A DNA stretch of 49,269 bases, taken from NCBI GenBank assembly GCA_025933775.1, contig JAICZH010000008.1, positions 1-49,269 on the forward strand, written 5' to 3'. Source of the DNA: Chitinophagaceae bacterium (GTDB taxonomy: Bacteria > Bacteroidota > Bacteroidia > Chitinophagales > Chitinophagaceae). The notes below the pieces were generated by a model. That model had not been told where the DNA came from. It was given only the letters and a program-made list of their open reading frames with translations, and did not search any database. Below, in pieces: positions 32,911 to 39,719 of this stretch (position 1 is its first letter; each line of letters begins with the position of its first letter). Position numbers and translations under genes: made by a program.

Positions 32911-32970
32911 TTTGAAAGTATTGCGATATAATGTCAAAGAAAAATTTTATTTGGCAGGCAATCTTAAAAG

Positions 32971-32996
32971 CCGTTCCATTTTTGGAACGGTTTTTT
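32971..32996 (+). terminator. Intrinsic terminator after the small lipoprotein gene
   Basis: Stem CCGTTCC/GGAACGG (32971-32977 and 32984-32990) with a 6 nt loop, followed by six T. It separates the lipoprotein transcript from the aromatic operon leader. Confidence 0.85.
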
Positions 32997-33061: not shown

Positions 33062-33091
33062 TTGAAAATTCATTTTGCCTTCTTATTTTTG
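33062..33091 (+). promoter_or_regulatory. Promoter of the aromatic amino acid operon
   Basis: TTG (33062-33064) and TATTTTTG (33084-33091), separated by 19 nt, match the Bacteroidota sigma-A consensus TTG / TAnnTTTG. Transcription would begin near 33097, a few bases before the leader-peptide start codon at 33104. Confidence 0.65.
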
Positions 33092-33103
33092 AAAAATCAA
33101 ATT

Positions 33104-33178
33104 ATGAACCATACGAAAGCATATTTCTTTTTTTATTTTAGCTACTATTTTAAAAATAGTGCGGGATGCTTTTGTTAA
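33104..33178 (+). CDS. Phe/Tyr-rich leader peptide of the pheA operon (24 codons)
   Basis: An ATG-to-TAA frame of 24 codons. Residues 7-16 are YFFFYFSYYF: five Phe and four Tyr in ten positions, with one more Phe before the stop. It starts just after a good promoter and stops 27 nt before an intrinsic terminator that directly precedes pheA, the first gene of a Phe/Tyr biosynthesis operon. This is the logic of enteric pheL-type leader peptides: ribosome stalling at Phe or Tyr codons when charged tRNA is short changes the folding of the RNA. The peptide itself probably has no other function. It is not expected to be called by gene finders because of its length. Confidence 0.85.
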   Translation: MNHTKAYFFFYFSYYFKNSAGCFC

Positions 33179-33235
33179 CGCTTAATAAAAAAAGATAAAA
33201 CATAAAAAAATCCCGGCACAAAAGCCGGGATTTTT
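33141..33235 (+). promoter_or_regulatory. Ribosome-dependent attenuator of the aromatic operon
   Basis: Three alternative pairings are visible. Pairing 1:2 is GC(T)ACTATT (33141-33149) with AATAGTGC (33155-33162), within the leader-peptide frame. Pairing 2:3 is CGGGAT (33162-33167) with ATCCCG (33210-33215), and nearby GCTTTTGT (33168-33175) exactly complements ACAAAAGC (33218-33225). Pairing 3:4 is the terminator. A ribosome stalled in the Phe/Tyr run would open 1:2 and free segment 2 to sequester the terminator's left arm. A ribosome at the stop codon (33176-33178) would cover segment 2 and allow termination. Confidence 0.78.
33206..33235 (+). terminator. Attenuator terminator immediately before pheA
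   Basis: Arms 33206-33217 and 33224-33235 pair perfectly over 12 bp (GC core ATCCCGGC/GCCGGGAT), with loop ACAAAA and a T-rich tail to 33240. It ends 7 nt before the pheA start codon. No gene between the previous terminator and this one needs it except the 24-codon leader, so it must act inside the pheA leader. Confidence 0.9.
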
Positions 33236-33246
33236 ATTTTAAAATA

Positions 33247-34071
33247 ATGAATAAAAAAATATCCATACAAGGTTTTGAAGGCAGCTTTCACCAGGTAGCT
33301 GCGCAACAATTTTTTGGCAATGATGTTGAAACCATTTGCTGCACTACATTTCGTGATGTTGTAAAAATAGCTTCAGATAAAAATAAAAGTGACGGCGGCG
33401 TAATGGCAATTGAAAACTCTTTAGCCGGAAGTATTTTGCCCAATTATAATTTATTGCAAAAAAGTCATTTAAAAATCATCGGAGAAATATATCTTCAAAT
33501 TAATCAACATTTATTAACAAGCCCAGGCGTAAAGCTGGAAGATATTCGAGAAGTGCATTCGCATCCGATGGCGCTTTTACAATGTATCGAATATCTTGAA
33601 AAGTATGATTGGAAATTAATTGAAACAGAAGATACGGCATTGAGTGCGAAACATATTCATCAACACAGGAGCAAACATATTGCAGCAATTGCAAGCAAGC
33701 TCGCTGCAGAATTATATCAGCTAAATATTATTGCGCCAAACATTCATACGCTTAAAAATAATTATACAAGATTTTTGGTTTTGGAAAGGCCTGAATCTGC
33801 AAAAGAAGTTGCAGGCGCTGATAAAGCATCAATCAATTTTCAAACTGATCATAGCAAAGGAAGTCTTGCAAAAGTATTATCAAAAATTGCTGATGGAGAT
33901 ATTAATCTTAGCAAGCTGCAATCATTTCCTATTCCCGGCAGCGATTGGAGATATTCTTTTCATGCAGATCTTGAATTTGAAAATTTGGAACAATTTAATA
34001 AAGTGATACAAGATATACAACCAATAACAGATGCATTGAAAATTTACGGCGTTTATAAAAAAGGTAAATAA
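33247..34071 (+). CDS. pheA: Prephenate dehydratase with ACT domain
   Basis: A 274-residue monofunctional enzyme converting prephenate to phenylpyruvate. The dehydratase domain (about 3-178) has GFEGSFHQVAA, MAIENSLAGSI (53-63) and the catalytic Thr-Arg-Phe in NNYTRFLVL (174-176). An ACT regulatory domain (about 193-270; KGSLAKVLSKIADGDINLSK) is expected to bind Phe for feedback inhibition. The chorismate mutase needed before it is fused to DAHP synthase further down the operon. Its stop overlaps the next start by one base (TAATG). Expression is probably governed by the upstream attenuator. Confidence 0.94.
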   Translation: MNKKISIQGFEGSFHQVAAQQFFGNDVETICCTTFRDVVKIASDKNKSDGGVMAIENSLAGSILPNYNLLQKSHLKIIGEIYLQINQHLLTSPGVKLEDIREVHSHPMALLQCIEYLEKYDWKLIETEDTALSAKHIHQHRSKHIAAIASKLAAELYQLNIIAPNIHTLKNNYTRFLVLERPESAKEVAGADKASINFQTDHSKGSLAKVLSKIADGDINLSKLQSFPIPGSDWRYSFHADLEFENLEQFNKVIQDIQPITDALKIYGVYKKGK

Positions 34072-35297
34072 TGAAAACAGCAAAAAGACTCGAAGGTGTT
34101 GGCGAATATTATTTTTCTCAAAAGCTGAGAGAGATTGATGATATGAATAAAGCCGGCAAAAATGTAATCAATCTCGGCATCGGAAGTCCTGATCTGCCGC
34201 CGCATTCATCAGTTATAAAAACATTAAATGAAGAAGCCGTCAAACCTAATGTTCATGCCTACCAGAATTATAAAGGCAGCCCTGTATTGCGCAATGCCAT
34301 TTCAAAATGGTATAAAAAATGGTATGATGTAACATTAAATCCTGATACAGAGATATTGCCTCTCATCGGTAGTAAAGAAGGTATAATGCATTTGTGTATG
34401 ACGTATATTAATGAAGGAGATGTTGTATTAATTCCTGATCCGGGTTATCCAACTTATAAAAGTGCAGCAACAATTGCCGGGGCTAACGTGCATGCCTATA
34501 CGCTGAAAGAAAAAAATAATTGGTTCCCTGATTTTAATGAATTGGAACAAATTATAGAGAACACCAAAAGCCTCCCCTTCGGGGAGGTTTGGAGGGGCTG
34601 TTTGATGTTTGTGAATTATCCGCACATGCCGACAGGTCAATTACCAACAAAAGAATTGTTTGAAAAATTAATTGCTTTTGCAAAAAAAAATAATATACTT
34701 CTTTGTCATGATAATCCATACAGTTTTATTTTAAATAAAAACCCAATGAGTTTGTTAAGCATTAAAGGTGCAAAAGATGTAACGATAGAATTAAATTCTT
34801 TCAGCAAAAGCCATAATATGGCAGGGTGGAGAGTAGGTATGTTATCAGGCAAAAAAGAAAAAATTGATGCAATACTTCGTTTTAAAAGTAATATGGACAG
34901 CGGCATGTTTCTTCCCATGCAACTCGCTGCAGCAAAGGCTTTGGAGCTTGATGAAAAATGGTTTGATGAACTCAATACTATTTATACAAAACGAAGAAAA
35001 AAAGTTTTTGAATTGCTGGATTTATTAAAATGTAATTATGATAAAAATCAGGCTGGCATGTTTGTTTGGGCTTCTATTCCTTCAAAATATAAAGACGGGT
35101 ATGAATTGAGTGATGCTATTTTGAAACATTCAAATGTATTTATAACGCCCGGAGGAATTTTTGGTAATGCTGGAAATAATTATGTAAGAGTAAGTCTGTG
35201 TACAACAGAAGAAAAAATTGAAGAAGCAATGCTAAGAATAAAAGAGTTGAAAGAAAAAACGAGTGATAAAAAAGAGAATAGAAAATTTATAAAATGA
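34071..35297 (+). CDS. Class I/II PLP aminotransferase of the aromatic operon
   Basis: A 408-residue fold-type I aminotransferase: VINLGIGSPDLPP near 32, IPDPGYPTYKS near 121, VNYPHMPTG (181-189), Schiff-base Lys246 in NSFSKSHNMAGWRVG, and the carboxylate-binding Arg in NYVRVSLC. By position between prephenate dehydratase and prephenate dehydrogenase, it probably transaminates phenylpyruvate and 4-hydroxyphenylpyruvate to Phe and Tyr. Related proteins are often annotated as aspartate- or methionine-type enzymes. Residues 166-177 (KSLPFGEVWRGC) are encoded by a palindromic repeat element inserted in frame just before the conserved VNYP strand. Start and stop overlap both neighbours (TAATG; ATGA). 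Confidence 0.9.
   Translation: MKTAKRLEGVGEYYFSQKLREIDDMNKAGKNVINLGIGSPDLPPHSSVIKTLNEEAVKPNVHAYQNYKGSPVLRNAISKWYKKWYDVTLNPDTEILPLIGSKEGIMHLCMTYINEGDVVLIPDPGYPTYKSAATIAGANVHAYTLKEKNNWFPDFNELEQIIENTKSLPFGEVWRGCLMFVNYPHMPTGQLPTKELFEKLIAFAKKNNILLCHDNPYSFILNKNPMSLLSIKGAKDVTIELNSFSKSHNMAGWRVGMLSGKKEKIDAILRFKSNMDSGMFLPMQLAAAKALELDEKWFDELNTIYTKRRKKVFELLDLLKCNYDKNQAGMFVWASIPSKYKDGYELSDAILKHSNVFITPGGIFGNAGNNYVRVSLCTTEEKIEEAMLRIKELKEKTSDKKENRKFIK
34568..34599 (+). repeat. Palindromic interspersed element, copy C, inside the aminotransferase gene
   Basis: AAGCCTCCCC-TTC-GGGGAGG then TTTGGAGGGGCT. The perfect 7 bp stem is CCTCCCC/GGGGAGG with loop TTC. It is read in frame as SLPFGEVWRGC. It matches copy B except for two single-base deletions and a few substitutions. 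Confidence 0.8.
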
Positions 35298-36199
35298 AAG
35301 CACACAACATTATAAAGCCTTCCAAAGTCTTCCCCTTCGGGAGAGATTTAGAGGGAGCCGTTGTTACCATTGTAGGCGTAGGTTTAATCGGCGGTTCATT
35401 TGCATTGGCATTGAAAGAAAATGGTTTTGCCAAAAAAATAATCGGCGTAAGCAGAACTGAAGGAAGTATCAATAAAGCAAAGCAATTGGGAATTATCGAG
35501 TATGCGTTACCGTTAGAAGAAGCCGTGAGGCAAAGCGATTTTATTTATGTTGCCATTCCGGTGGATGTTACTATTCCGGTAATGAAACAAATAATGAATT
35601 TGGTCAACGATAAACAAATTGTAGCCGATGCAGGTTCTACAAAATATGCCTTATGCAAAGAACTAACGGTGCACCCTATGCGAAAAAGATTTGTAGCAAC
35701 CCATCCCATGTGGGGAACGGAATACAGTGGCCCGGAAGCCGCCGTGAGAGGCGCTTTCAATGGCAGATCGTGTGTTATTTGTGAAAAAGAAAAAAGCGAT
35801 GAAGATGCTGTAAATGTTGTAGAAAATATTTATAAAAAATTAGGTATGCACATCACTTATATGGATCCTCAAAATCACGATTTACATGCGGCTTATGTAA
35901 GTCATATATCGCACATAACATCTTTTGCATTGGCAAATACTGTTTTGGAAAAAGAAAAAGAAGATGAGGCCATTTTTGAATTATCAGGCGGTGGTTTTGA
36001 AAGCACTGTTCGATTAGCAAAAAGCAGCCCGGCCACTTGGGCGCCCATTTTTATGCAGAATAAAGAAAATGTTTTAGATGTTTTGAATGAACATATTTCT
36101 CAATTAAGAAAATTTAAAAGTTGTCTTGAAAAAGAAAATATGGAATATCTAAAGGAGTTAATGGAACATGCGAATAAGATAAAAAGAATTATAAAATAA
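35294..36199 (+). CDS. tyrA: Prephenate dehydrogenase
   Basis: A 301-residue NAD(P)-dependent enzyme making 4-hydroxyphenylpyruvate from prephenate. The Rossmann motif is VVTIVGVGLIGGSFALAL, followed by IYVAIPVDVTIPVM, VADAGSTKYAL and the catalytic-site block FVATHPMWGTEYSGPEAA. AAYVSHISHITSFALANTV comes later. No C-terminal ACT domain is seen. The start overlaps the aminotransferase stop (ATGA). There is no other plausible start before the Rossmann strand, so residues 11-22 (KVFPFGRDLEGA), encoded by a repeat element, must be translated; homologues normally begin at the Rossmann strand itself. Confidence 0.93.
   Translation: MKAHNIIKPSKVFPFGRDLEGAVVTIVGVGLIGGSFALALKENGFAKKIIGVSRTEGSINKAKQLGIIEYALPLEEAVRQSDFIYVAIPVDVTIPVMKQIMNLVNDKQIVADAGSTKYALCKELTVHPMRKRFVATHPMWGTEYSGPEAAVRGAFNGRSCVICEKEKSDEDAVNVVENIYKKLGMHITYMDPQNHDLHAAYVSHISHITSFALANTVLEKEKEDEAIFELSGGGFESTVRLAKSSPATWAPIFMQNKENVLDVLNEHISQLRKFKSCLEKENMEYLKELMEHANKIKRIIK
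35324..35359 (+). repeat. Palindromic interspersed element, copy D, inside tyrA
   Basis: AAAGTCTTCCCC-TTC-GGGAGAGATTTAGAGGGAGCC is read as KVFPFGRDLEGA. It has the same orientation and the same reading frame as copy C in the preceding gene (both give PFG at the turn). The stem is imperfect on the right arm (GGGAGAG), suggesting drift or selection for the protein sequence. Confidence 0.78.
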
Positions 36200-36314: not shown

Positions 36315-37403
36315 ATGCAAACACAAACAAAAACAATGAAAGATGTAATGCAGGAAAAATGGAACAAACGCCCATTAATTATTAGCGGACCTTGCAGTGC
36401 AGAAACAGAAGAGCAAGTGCTGGAAACCGCTACACGACTGGCTAAAACAGGAAAGGTAGATGTGCTTCGCGCAGGTATATGGAAGCCGCGAACAAAGCCC
36501 GGGATGTTTGAGGGCATTGGCATGAAAGGCTTGCCGTGGATGGCGCATGCAAAAAAAATTACCGGGCTTCCCACCACTGTTGAAGTAGCAACAGCAAAAC
36601 ATGTGGAAGATGCTTTACATTTTGATGTGGACATGCTTTGGATCGGCGCAAGAACCACAGTGAATCCTTTCAGCGTGCAGGAAGTGTGCGATGCATTGCG
36701 TGGCGTAGATGTGCCTGTGCTAATAAAAAATCCCATCAATCCCGATCTTGAATTGTGGTGTGGTGGCATTGAGCGTTTGCAAAAAGTTGGCATAAAACAA
36801 ATAGGAATGATTCATCGCGGATTTTCAAATTATGGCAATACCGAATTTCGTAATGCACCGATGTGGCATTTGCCAATCGAGATGCGGCGCAGGTTTCCGG
36901 AGATGTTACTGATTTGCGATCCATCGCATATTTGCGGCAACAGAACATTATTACAATCTGTTGCACAAAAAAGTATTGACCTCGATTTTAATGGATTGAT
37001 GATTGAAACCCACATTGATCCTGATAATGCGTGGAGCGATGCGAAGCAACAAATTACTCCCGAACGTTTATTAGAAATGTTGGGTGAATTAATTTGGCGT
37101 TCAGAAAATACGGATGAAAAAGAATTTTTAACGGCGCTTGCTACTTTGAGAGAACAGATCAATCACATAGATGATGAATTGCTTACACTCATTGGGCAGC
37201 GAATGAAAATTGCTGATAAAATTGGTAAATATAAAAAGGAAAATAACATTACTATTTTACAAACCAATCGCTGGAACGATATACTGGCAAAGGCTTTCAA
37301 GAAAGGTGAAAAATTAGGACTGAGCAAAGAATTTATCACAAAATATTTTGATGCCGTTCACTTGGAAAGTATTAATCACCAGAATAAAATAATGAATGAT
37401 TAA
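36315..37403 (+). CDS. Bifunctional DAHP synthase / chorismate mutase
   Basis: A 362-residue fusion. Residues 15-265 are a type I-beta DAHP synthase, condensing PEP and erythrose 4-phosphate: RPLIISGPCSAET, LRAGIWKPRTKPGMFEG, WIGARTTVNPF, IGMIHRGF and ICDPSHICGNR. Residues about 270-355 are an AroQ-type chorismate mutase (LATLREQINHIDDELLTLIG, QRMKIADKIGKYKKEN). The pathway's first step is thus joined to the branch-point enzyme that makes prephenate, the substrate of pheA and tyrA upstream. Such fusions are known in Bacteroidota, where the mutase domain also serves feedback control. The last 8 nt overlap aroB. Confidence 0.95.
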   Translation: MQTQTKTMKDVMQEKWNKRPLIISGPCSAETEEQVLETATRLAKTGKVDVLRAGIWKPRTKPGMFEGIGMKGLPWMAHAKKITGLPTTVEVATAKHVEDALHFDVDMLWIGARTTVNPFSVQEVCDALRGVDVPVLIKNPINPDLELWCGGIERLQKVGIKQIGMIHRGFSNYGNTEFRNAPMWHLPIEMRRRFPEMLLICDPSHICGNRTLLQSVAQKSIDLDFNGLMIETHIDPDNAWSDAKQQITPERLLEMLGELIWRSENTDEKEFLTALATLREQINHIDDELLTLIGQRMKIADKIGKYKKENNITILQTNRWNDILAKAFKKGEKLGLSKEFITKYFDAVHLESINHQNKIMND

Positions 37404-38433
37404 AAAAATTCTTCCGCAGCAATATAAATTTTCAGAAAAAAAAGTAGATGTTTTTTTTGATGTTGATTTTTCTTTAATTGAAACAAAAGTTTCGAAAGAA
37501 AAATTAATTTTTATTACAGATGAAAATATTTATGCATTGCATAAAGAAAAATTTTCAGGTATAAAAACAATTGTAATAAAACCGGGAGAAAAATTTAAAA
37601 ATCAACAAACCGTAAATTCAATAATTGATCAGCTTATCAATTTACATGCCGACAGGCAAACATTTATTGTAGGCATTGGCGGCGGCGTTGTTACTGATAT
37701 AGCAGGATTTGCTGCATCAATTTATATGCGCGGAATAAAATTTGCTTTTGTTCCAACCAGCATTTTAGCTATGGTGGATGCGTGTATCGGCGGAAAGAAC
37801 GGAATAGACGTAGGCGTTTATAAAAATCTTGTTGGCGTAATCAATCATCCTGAATTTTTATTGTACGATTATACATTTTTAGAAACATTGCCCGATGATG
37901 AATGGATAAATGGCTTTGCAGAAATTATAAAACATGCATGCATTAAAGACAAAGAAATGTTTCATTTTTTAGAGCAACATTCAATCATGAAATTTCAATC
38001 ATCATTAAAAGATATTGCTACAATTGTAAAACGAAATGTAGATATAAAATATAATGTTGTATTAAATGATGAACAGGAAACCGGCGAAAGAAAATTATTA
38101 AATTTCGGGCATACCATTGGCCATGCAATTGAAAATACAAGCAAGCTTTCGCATGGAAAAGCAATCAGCATCGGAATGATTGCAGCCTGTCATATTTCTG
38201 AAGCGATAAATAATTTTCATAAAGCTGAGACAAAAAAAATATCTGATCTTCTTACTAAATATGAATTGCCAGTTTCATTTTCATTTGATAAACAAAAAAC
38301 ATGGGAAATATTATTGCACGATAAAAAAAAATCCGGCGACAACATAAATTTTATTGTGCTCGATAAAATTGGTTCAGCATCTGTAAAACCAATATCACTT
38401 CATCAATTACATAAAATTTTTAACAGCATATAG
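37396..38433 (+). CDS. aroB: 3-dehydroquinate synthase
   Basis: A 345-residue enzyme closing DAHP to 3-dehydroquinate, second shikimate step, with NAD and a metal. Seen: GIGGGVVTDIAGFAASIYMRG (NAD-binding/active site), PTSILAMVDACIGGKNGID, metal-site Glu in FAEIIKHACI, and the histidines in LLNFGHTIGHAIE and LSHGKAISIGM. Length is slightly below the usual 350-360. It overlaps the preceding gene by 8 nt, and its TAG stop shares a base with the GTG start of aroA, so translation is tightly coupled. Confidence 0.95.
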   Translation: MIKKILPQQYKFSEKKVDVFFDVDFSLIETKVSKEKLIFITDENIYALHKEKFSGIKTIVIKPGEKFKNQQTVNSIIDQLINLHADRQTFIVGIGGGVVTDIAGFAASIYMRGIKFAFVPTSILAMVDACIGGKNGIDVGVYKNLVGVINHPEFLLYDYTFLETLPDDEWINGFAEIIKHACIKDKEMFHFLEQHSIMKFQSSLKDIATIVKRNVDIKYNVVLNDEQETGERKLLNFGHTIGHAIENTSKLSHGKAISIGMIAACHISEAINNFHKAETKKISDLLTKYELPVSFSFDKQKTWEILLHDKKKSGDNINFIVLDKIGSASVKPISLHQLHKIFNSI

Positions 38434-39719
38434 TGATAGTAACCGTTTCTCCATCCGTAATTGCAGGAAGCCTGCAAGCCCCGCCATCAAAGAGTTGTAT
38501 GCAAAGGGCATGTGCAGCGGCGCTCATCAATAACGGCACAACCATTATTGAAAATGCGGGCAACAGCAATGATGAACAGGCAGCAAAAAATATTGTGCAA
38601 AAGTTAGGCGCCACTGTTGATTCTGTTCGTAAAGAAATTATCATTACATCAAATGACCATATTTTTTCTTCCACTTTTCCTGGTAAACATTCTATGATTT
38701 CAGTTGGCGAAAGCGGATTATCATTGCGAATGTTTGCGCCTCTTGCAGCATTGTTTAAATATGAAATTACATTCACCGGCGAAGGAAGTATTTTAAAAAG
38801 GCCGGTTGATTTTTTTGAAAAAGTTCTTCCGCAATTAGGAGTTGATGTAAACACAAATGATGGAAAAATTCCATTGGTAATAAAAGGTCCTTTGAAGCCA
38901 AAAAATATTACTGTTGACGGATCATTAAGCTCACAGTTTTTAACAGGCCTGTTGATGGCGTATGCAAAAGCGTGTACGACTCCCGTTAGTATTAAAGTAA
39001 ATAATCTTACCAGCAAACCTTACATTGATCTTACAGTTAATATTTTAAAACACTTTGGATTTAATGTTGAGAATAATCATTATGAAACGTTTCATATTTT
39101 ACCGCAAAAAAAAATAAATAATCATAGCATAAAATATACTGTGGAAGGCGATTGGAGCAACATTGCTTTTTTATTAACTGCTGCAGCAATTGCCGGTGAA
39201 GTAACCGTAAAAAATGCGGATATAAATTCAGCACAGGGCGATAAAAAAATTATCAATGCATTGGAACAGTGCGGTACAAAATTGTTGATCAATAAAAATG
39301 AAGTAAGGGTTTCAAGAAAAGATTTGCATGCATTTAATTTTGATGCAACTGATTCTCCTGATTTATTTCCGCCGTTAGTAGCGCTGGCAGCGTATTGCAA
39401 GGGAACTTCTGTTATAAAAGGCGTCAATCGTTTATTACACAAAGAAAGTGATCGGGCAAAAACATTGCAATCAGAATTTACAAAAATGAAAGTGGATATT
39501 GCCATCAATGATGATTTGATGATTATTAAAGGAGGCAAACAAATTAAAGGCGCAAAAGTATCTTCGCACAATGACCATCGTATTGCTATGGCGTGCGCCG
39601 TTGCTGCATTAGGGGCAAAAGGAAATACAATTATTCATAATGCAGAAGCTGTGAAAAAATCGTATCCTTCATTTTTTGATGATATAAAAATGCTAAAAGC
39701 ATCTTTGCAAATTTCCTAA
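38433..39719 (+). CDS. aroA: 5-enolpyruvylshikimate-3-phosphate synthase
   Basis: A 428-residue enzyme joining PEP to shikimate 3-phosphate, starting at GTG (38433). Family blocks: APPSKSCMQRACAAALI near the start, VGESGLSLRMFAPLAALF, DGSLSSQFLTGLLMAYA, catalytic Asp region DATDSPDLFPPLVALAAYC, and HNDHRIAMACAVAALGAKG. The loop normally reading GNAGTAMRPL reads GESGLSLRMF, so it is not the classical class I sequence; this is common in divergent Bacteroidota enzymes. Last gene of the operon. The steps from dehydroquinate to shikimate 3-phosphate and the final chorismate synthase are not in the window. Confidence 0.95.
   Translation: MIVTVSPSVIAGSLQAPPSKSCMQRACAAALINNGTTIIENAGNSNDEQAAKNIVQKLGATVDSVRKEIIITSNDHIFSSTFPGKHSMISVGESGLSLRMFAPLAALFKYEITFTGEGSILKRPVDFFEKVLPQLGVDVNTNDGKIPLVIKGPLKPKNITVDGSLSSQFLTGLLMAYAKACTTPVSIKVNNLTSKPYIDLTVNILKHFGFNVENNHYETFHILPQKKINNHSIKYTVEGDWSNIAFLLTAAAIAGEVTVKNADINSAQGDKKIINALEQCGTKLLINKNEVRVSRKDLHAFNFDATDSPDLFPPLVALAAYCKGTSVIKGVNRLLHKESDRAKTLQSEFTKMKVDIAINDDLMIIKGGKQIKGAKVSSHNDHRIAMACAVAALGAKGNTIIHNAEAVKKSYPSFFDDIKMLKASLQIS

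Follow-up and report, generated by a model that had tools for sequence, protein, structure and literature searches.

A putative bivalent Phe/Tyr leader-peptide attenuator at the head of an aromatic amino acid operon in Chitinophagaceae and other Bacteroidia

In enteric bacteria the prephenate dehydratase gene is preceded by a leader, that of pheL-pheA, which is rich in Phe codons and carries no Tyr content comparable to that of the leaders described here, and in the multivalent ilvGMEDA and thr leaders a single run of codons reports several end products. We analysed a window (the whole stretch of DNA under study, 49,269 nucleotides from a Chitinophagaceae bacterium, contig JAICZH010000008.1) in which pheA heads an operon for aromatic amino acid synthesis. 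Like the ilvGMEDA and thr leaders, the leader in this window devotes one run to several end products, the pair being Phe and Tyr; unlike enteric pheL-pheA, it mixes Phe with Tyr codons, precedes a longer operon and has a TAnnTTTG motif only a few nt before its ATG, and its relation to the enteric system is likely one of convergence. A permissive scan gave a weak full-length match of the window to RF01859 Phe_leader (34.1 bits, E 5e-4), which falls below the curated gathering cut-off of 55, so that by score the window is not a member of that family, and which tells little, since other families reach a similar E (Termite-leu, 9e-4). Rfam families, T-box and riboswitch families included, gave no match above the gathering cut-off, either in the window or in a set of 20 loci that comprised 11 pheA loci.

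An attenuator at such a place has been hinted at before. Table 7 of Bonner et al. 2005 enters a putative attenuator before pheA>hisHb>aroAIb-aroQ>tyrA of Bacteroides thetaiotaomicron, taken from Merino's website (PMC1173090). The entry shares with our window both the phylum and the type of operon, headed by pheA, and it qualifies the statement of the sequence-only reading, a model's earlier annotation of the window, that no description was known for the clade; the comparison is with the table entry, which as such gives no leader peptide, codons or conservation (PMC1173090). A B. thetaiotaomicron transcriptome study mentions small frames resembling leader peptides within long 5' UTRs (PMC7366714), and Bacteroidetes are among the organisms surveyed for predicted leader genes (PMC4833913). 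The proposed uORFC-13-1 before aroF of Acholeplasma resembles our leader in combining a Phe-codon uORF and a terminator before an aromatic gene, and differs, as presented in that source, in its organisms, its content of at least one Phe codon and its structure (PMC8632094). The kind of device being known (pheL/trpL) and its place hinted at (PMC1173090), what the present analysis adds is the leader with its Phe and Tyr codons, the helices that covary in it and the range of organisms that carry it.

The leader and its operon

The elements between the promoter-like motif and pheA are as follows.

33062-33091, plus strand: promoter-like element, TTG (33062-33064), 19 nt, TATTTTTG (33084-33091); direct reading
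33104-33178, plus strand: leader ORF, ATG start, 24 codons and TAA, MNHTKAYFFFYFSYYFKNSAGCFC; direct reading
33122-33151, plus strand: proposed regulatory codons 7-16, YFFFYFSYYF; direct reading
33113-33122, plus strand: segment 1, ACGAAAGCAU, codons 4-6 and the first base of codon 7; predicted protector stem with 33166-33175 (MFE fold, covariation)
33144-33160, plus strand: small inner hairpin within the 1:2 structure (MFE fold; covariation z -5.2)
33159-33177, plus strand: segment 2, GUGCGGGAUGCUUUUGUUA, whose partner is predicted to switch between segments 1 and 3
33199-33220, plus strand: segment 3, comprising the AACAUAA spacer, the left arm of the terminator (AUCCCGGC) and the initial bases of its loop; predicted antiterminator partner
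33206-33240, plus strand: intrinsic terminator 3:4, an 11-12 bp stem (about 33206-33235), 6-nt loop and U-rich tail

The promoter-like element and the 24-codon frame with its YFFFYFSYYF run were both already marked by the sequence-only reading and lie where it had placed them; the former fits what we take to be the -33/-7 consensus of Bacteroidota, in which TAnnTTTG figures. The fold predicted for the leader RNA has an energy of -34.4 kcal/mol (z -4.2), a stability equalled in 1 of 200 shuffles. One terminator scan listed the 12-bp stem at 33206-33235 on the minus strand only, and our own detector found it on the plus strand as an 11-bp stem with the tail TATTTTAAAA; hence it may act in both directions. 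Its T tract ends at 33240, 6 nt before the pheA ATG at 33247, which upholds the terminator of the earlier reading and corrects the 7-nt gap given with it. A further terminator-like site, of 13 pairs, occupies 32966-32995, in the stretch that separates the leader from the reading frame upstream of it.

The genes that follow are these.

33247-34071, plus strand: pheA, prephenate dehydratase (PF00800, E 9.5e-58; ACT_4 below cut-off)
34071-35297, plus strand: class I/II aminotransferase (PF00155, E 1.3e-63)
35294-36199, plus strand: tyrA, prephenate dehydrogenase (PF02153, PF20463)
36315-37403, plus strand: DAHP synthase-chorismate mutase fusion (PF00793, PF01817)
37396-38433, plus strand: aroB, 3-dehydroquinate synthase (PF01761, PF24621)
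38433-39719, plus strand: aroA, EPSP synthase (PF00275, E 1.3e-91)

These Pfam matches bear out the gene string pheA-aminotransferase-tyrA-DAHPS/CM-aroB-aroA that had been proposed from the translations. An aminotransferase gene adjoins the 3' side of pheA in 105 of 110 loci, that of the window among them. A leader ORF with a run of codons for the end products and an intrinsic terminator stand 5' of the first gene of this operon, an arrangement expected of leader-peptide attenuators.

Alternative helices and ribosome spacing

Comparison of the leaders indicates two conserved partners for segment 2, namely codons 4-6 (the protector stem, 1:2) and the AACAUAA spacer together with the left arm of the terminator (the antiterminator, 2:3, which in the window forms a duplex of -16.1 kcal/mol). 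The antiterminator 2:3 and the terminator 3:4 are predicted to be mutually exclusive, and the protector stem adjoins or overlaps the regulatory codons, as expected of an attenuator. The earlier proposal for the antiterminator had CGGGAT pairing with the left arm and GCTTTTGT with the loop. Both words are present at the sites then given (33162-33167 and 33168-33175, by direct reading), but the two half-pairings exclude each other: as the words follow one another along the RNA, they could not both enter a single antiparallel helix, and the GCTTTTGT-loop pairing was rejected as part of a single helix with the CGGGAT-left arm pairing. Similarly, the 1:2 hairpin that had been placed at 33144-33160 does appear in the MFE fold, with weak covariation (z -5.2), but the stronger conserved 1:2 pairing is that of 33113-33122 with 33166-33175.

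RNAalifold recovered the terminator as the sole helix from a MAFFT alignment (A1) that comprised every family leader except L059 and L066 (62 of 64) and is the basis of no count, presumably because MAFFT loses the register of the partners and the helices are mutually exclusive. A swap test was therefore used, in which the partners found in each genome were exchanged among 55 genus representatives, the phylogeny being uncorrected. In these 55 genera matched partners paired more stably than swapped ones both for 1:2 (-13.5 versus -10.5 kcal/mol, z -8.1) and, more strongly, for 2:3 (-22.1 versus -16.2 kcal/mol, z -13.7). The control 1:3 gave z 0.0, and the control 2:4, for which no pairing is expected, showed a weak gain (-8.1 versus -7.4, z -4.2), perhaps because segment 4 is almost a copy of segment 2. 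No swapped partner paired better than the matched one in just 5 of 55 cases for 1:2 and 9 of 55 for 2:3, similar words being common to many genera. Examples of words that change together are AAAGCAUA with AUGCUUUUG in one group and GCAAAUACA with UGUAUUUGC and AUACA in another; the pairing words of one genome (G049), CUGAGG with CCUCAG, are quite unlike the others.

The placement of these helices relative to the codon run is also consistent with a role for the ribosome. From the last Phe or Tyr codon to segment 2 the distance is 11 nt in the median, and 7-14 nt in 68 of 73 leaders, a spacing close to that between the A site and the leading edge of a ribosome, and it fits the ribosome edge. A partition-function model of the RNA made as far as the terminator loop, computed for 55 genomes, predicts an antiterminator probability above 0.5 in all 55 with the ribosome stalled mid-run (mean 0.89) and a lower value in all 55 with the ribosome at the stop codon (mean 0.38); the respective values for the window are 0.83 and 0.15. 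With the ribosome at the stop the modelled antiterminator still exceeds 0.5 in 20 of 55 genomes, the window not among them. In this model, then, a stall frees segment 2 and a ribosome at the stop codon covers it, as attenuation would have it. As long as the RNA does not yet extend to segment 3, segment 2 is predicted to pair with segment 1, at a probability above 0.5 for its best-paired base in 53 of 55 genomes. At equilibrium and with no ribosome, the predicted probability of the antiterminator exceeds 0.5 in 50 of 55 genomes and is 0.81 in the window; the stalled and ribosome-free states being nearly alike in the model, untranslated RNA would need kinetic folding in order to terminate.

Conservation of the leader and the likelihood of chance

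Leaders were scored in relatives as short frames upstream of pheA with at least 6 Phe or Tyr among 10 codons. Relatives of pheA occur in 86 of 149 related genomes, of which 83 loci were read (G105, G129 and G141 being left out). Of these 83, 73 have a Phe/Tyr-rich leader ahead of pheA: 64 of the 67 that belong to the family of the window and 9 of the 16 from elsewhere in the order. A terminator lies behind the leader in all 73, with scores that were reached by none of 365 mononucleotide shuffles. The conservation on which the sequence-only reading had staked its pheL/trpL-type interpretation is thus found on both counts, the short frame being kept in diverged sequence and both alternative stems covarying. 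TAnnTTTG occurs within 45 nt 5' of the leader ATG in 63 of the 73 leaders, as against 202 of 3650 mononucleotide shuffles, and in 53 of those 63 it lies 4-12 nt from the ATG; should it represent the -7 element of the presumed consensus, the untranslated 5' leader would comprise just a few nt.

By the scan, 10 of the 83 loci lack a leader. Among these, G008 has unknown bases within the leader, G067 (L052) has pheA close behind another coding frame, and G110 offered just 108 nt; no leader was found by scan in G060, G111, G090, G091, G123, G140 and G102. In a set of named records (the best 80 of 583, labelled Chitinophagaceae, Niastella, Segetibacter, Flavihumibacter, Filimonas, Terrimonas, Lacibacter and some other or broader names), whose genomes partly overlap the 83-locus set, a leader was present in 79 of 80 loci and a terminator behind 78 of 79. 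Wider sampling drew on a phylum set of 128 genomes with pheA, of which 52 new loci were read (26 within the class and 26 outside), 7 were already included and 69 outside the class were left out, and on a second class set, in which the search found pheA in 39 of 139 genomes, 22 of them new and 21 read (G383 left out). In other orders of the class 34 of 47 loci have the leader (22 of 26 and 12 of 21) and 13 of 47 are without, a terminator following 21 of 22 and 10 of 12 of these leaders, respectively. Outside the class the leader was found in 2 of 26 loci, G161 and G209, and G161 keeps it although its upstream region has 57% GC. Classical attenuation with a Phe and Tyr leader would, on this distribution, head the aromatic operon across many families of the class.

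Some loci carry more than one such frame. Tandem Phe/Tyr leaders, each with its own terminator, lie at -348 and -197 from the pheA match in G025 (L062) and at -354 and -192 in G106 (L078), and G215 has two Phe/Tyr frames upstream of pheA, for which terminators were not detected. Tandem attenuators might produce a steeper switch.

A trivial origin, in AT-rich intergenic DNA followed by a terminator that belongs to the upstream gene, was weighed against shuffled and local sequence. For this purpose the 83 upstream regions, none longer than 405 nt, were shuffled with their dinucleotides kept, and the best ATG frame was taken from each shuffle and from each of 490 tiles of the window. A content of at least 6 Phe or Tyr in 10 codons is weaker evidence taken alone, since it is reached by 27 of 2490 shuffles and 11 of 490 tiles (2 of these being the leader site itself) as well as by 72 of 83 real regions, and to that extent the trivial origin has something in its favour. 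At least 7, however, occur in none of 2490 shuffles and in 63 of 83 real regions, and the 2 of 490 tiles with 7 both cover the leader site. The conservation of leader and terminator with covarying helices in relatives, and the presence of a separate terminator-like site at 32966-32995 already behind the upstream reading frame, argue further against chance, which we regard as exceedingly improbable.

The proposed switch and its place among other leaders

Taken together, the frame and its codons, the terminator, the covarying alternative helices, the spacing and the content of the operon, all of them read from sequence, make us highly confident, with the support of the folding model, in a ribosome-mediated transcription attenuator of the pheL/trpL type that would sense charged tRNA-Phe and tRNA-Tyr, and that very probably turns the aromatic pathway on when Phe or Tyr is short. 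We infer the stalling, the termination in vivo and the response to both amino acids as follows. RNA polymerase would start just 5' of the leader ATG, and a ribosome would begin the leader immediately. With Phe and Tyr plentiful, the ribosome should reach the TAA and mask segment 2, whereupon 3 would pair with 4 and transcription would end before pheA. Were either amino acid short, the ribosome would stall in codons 7-16, masking segment 1 and leaving segment 2 exposed; 2:3 could then form ahead of 4 and block the terminator, and transcription would continue into the genes for Phe, for Tyr and for part of the pathway common to both. If the leader is not translated, 1:2 would form first and termination would follow, which is the weakest step of the scheme.

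The same RNA might in principle be governed without a translating ribosome: an RNA-binding protein, or an RNA element that senses a ligand, would control the terminator, and the short frame would be incidental. Helices 2:3 and 3:4 would by themselves suffice for such a switch, and the ribosome-free RNA already favours 2:3 in the model. Against this, the frame and its Phe/Tyr content are kept while the nucleotides and the end of the peptide vary (RPGMLLL versus SRVVFAKA), the spacing between Phe/Tyr codons and segment 2 suits a ribosome, and the window and the 20 loci lack Rfam matches above cut-off; we therefore consider such control very improbable. Nor is there much to be said for a leader peptide that is primarily a functional small protein acting in trans, to which we assign a similarly slight likelihood: peTrpL of Sinorhizobium is reported to act in trans (PMC7298713), but what is kept here is the Phe/Tyr content and the RNA pairing, and not the order of residues or the C-terminal part. 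The peptide may nevertheless have an extra role in trans besides attenuation.

Which amino acids the attenuator senses is a separate question. The earlier reading had found the mixture of Phe and Tyr in one run appealing in an operon that makes both, and indeed both residues occur in all 73 leaders, each with Phe plus at least two Tyr codons. The leaders themselves were chosen by Phe/Tyr content. When the runs are delimited by F or Y, 366 of their 719 codons specify Phe and 252 Tyr, and among codons one base from TTY there are 252 TAY versus 10 of all other pyrimidine-ended kinds. This definition favours Tyr, and the count was therefore repeated with runs defined by Phe alone, in which Tyr makes up 176 of 234 interior non-Phe codons, again with 176 TAY versus 10 of all other pyrimidine-ended kinds one base from TTY. 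The excess of Phe over Tyr codons in the runs and the example of enteric pheL, Phe-rich with no comparable Tyr content, could be taken to mean that Phe alone is sensed and that Tyr codons are fillers which keep the run U-rich and weakly structured. The presence of at least two Tyr in every leader, their marked preference over other pyrimidine-ended neighbours in Phe-defined runs, and a set of operon products that covers both amino acids make sensing of Phe alone unlikely, and the attenuator probably senses both end products.

The use of such leaders may extend to other pathways, as indicated by searches upstream of biosynthetic genes in relatives. A His-rich leader with terminator precedes hisG in 17 of 19 loci (one is without, and L244 was left out), a Trp-Trp leader with terminator precedes trpE in 17 of 18, and Thr/Ile-rich frames, scored as frames alone, lie upstream of thrA in 7 of 9; before ilvD an I/V-rich leader was found in just 2 of 17. 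When the terminator was not required, a threshold of at least 4 His in 10 codons was reached before hisG by 17 of 18 real regions (shuffles, 1 of 180), one of two Trp in 3 codons before trpE by 18 of 18 (shuffles, 8 of 180), and one of at least 8 Thr/Ile in 12 codons before thrA by 6 of 9 (shuffles, 0 of 90). On balance we lean towards a general picture in which Bacteroidia run several amino acid operons by leader-peptide attenuation, comprising an old bivalent Phe/Tyr leader of the aromatic operon that starts almost at the promoter and, in Chitinophagaceae, His, Trp and Thr leaders beside it. The attenuator points to an RNA family that lies below the Rfam cut-off, and leaders for His, Trp and Thr accompany it in one lineage. 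The general picture would also call for closely timed transcription and translation in Bacteroidota, a subject that to our knowledge has been little studied there, and the leaders would serve as natural reporters for whether ribosomes closely trail RNA polymerase in these organisms.

The genome of the window itself contains a His-rich leader, MKQTTHIHHHHFLPKGKLR, with terminator before hisG (L238, C179), similar arrangements being present in most relatives read among L237-L254, and a leader, MKINNTYNSWWHSIS, with terminator before trpE (L261, C185), with the like in most relatives read among L255-L272. Thr/Ile-rich short frames are found at L338, L340-L343, L345 and L346, before thrA, presumed to encode aspartokinase-homoserine dehydrogenase.
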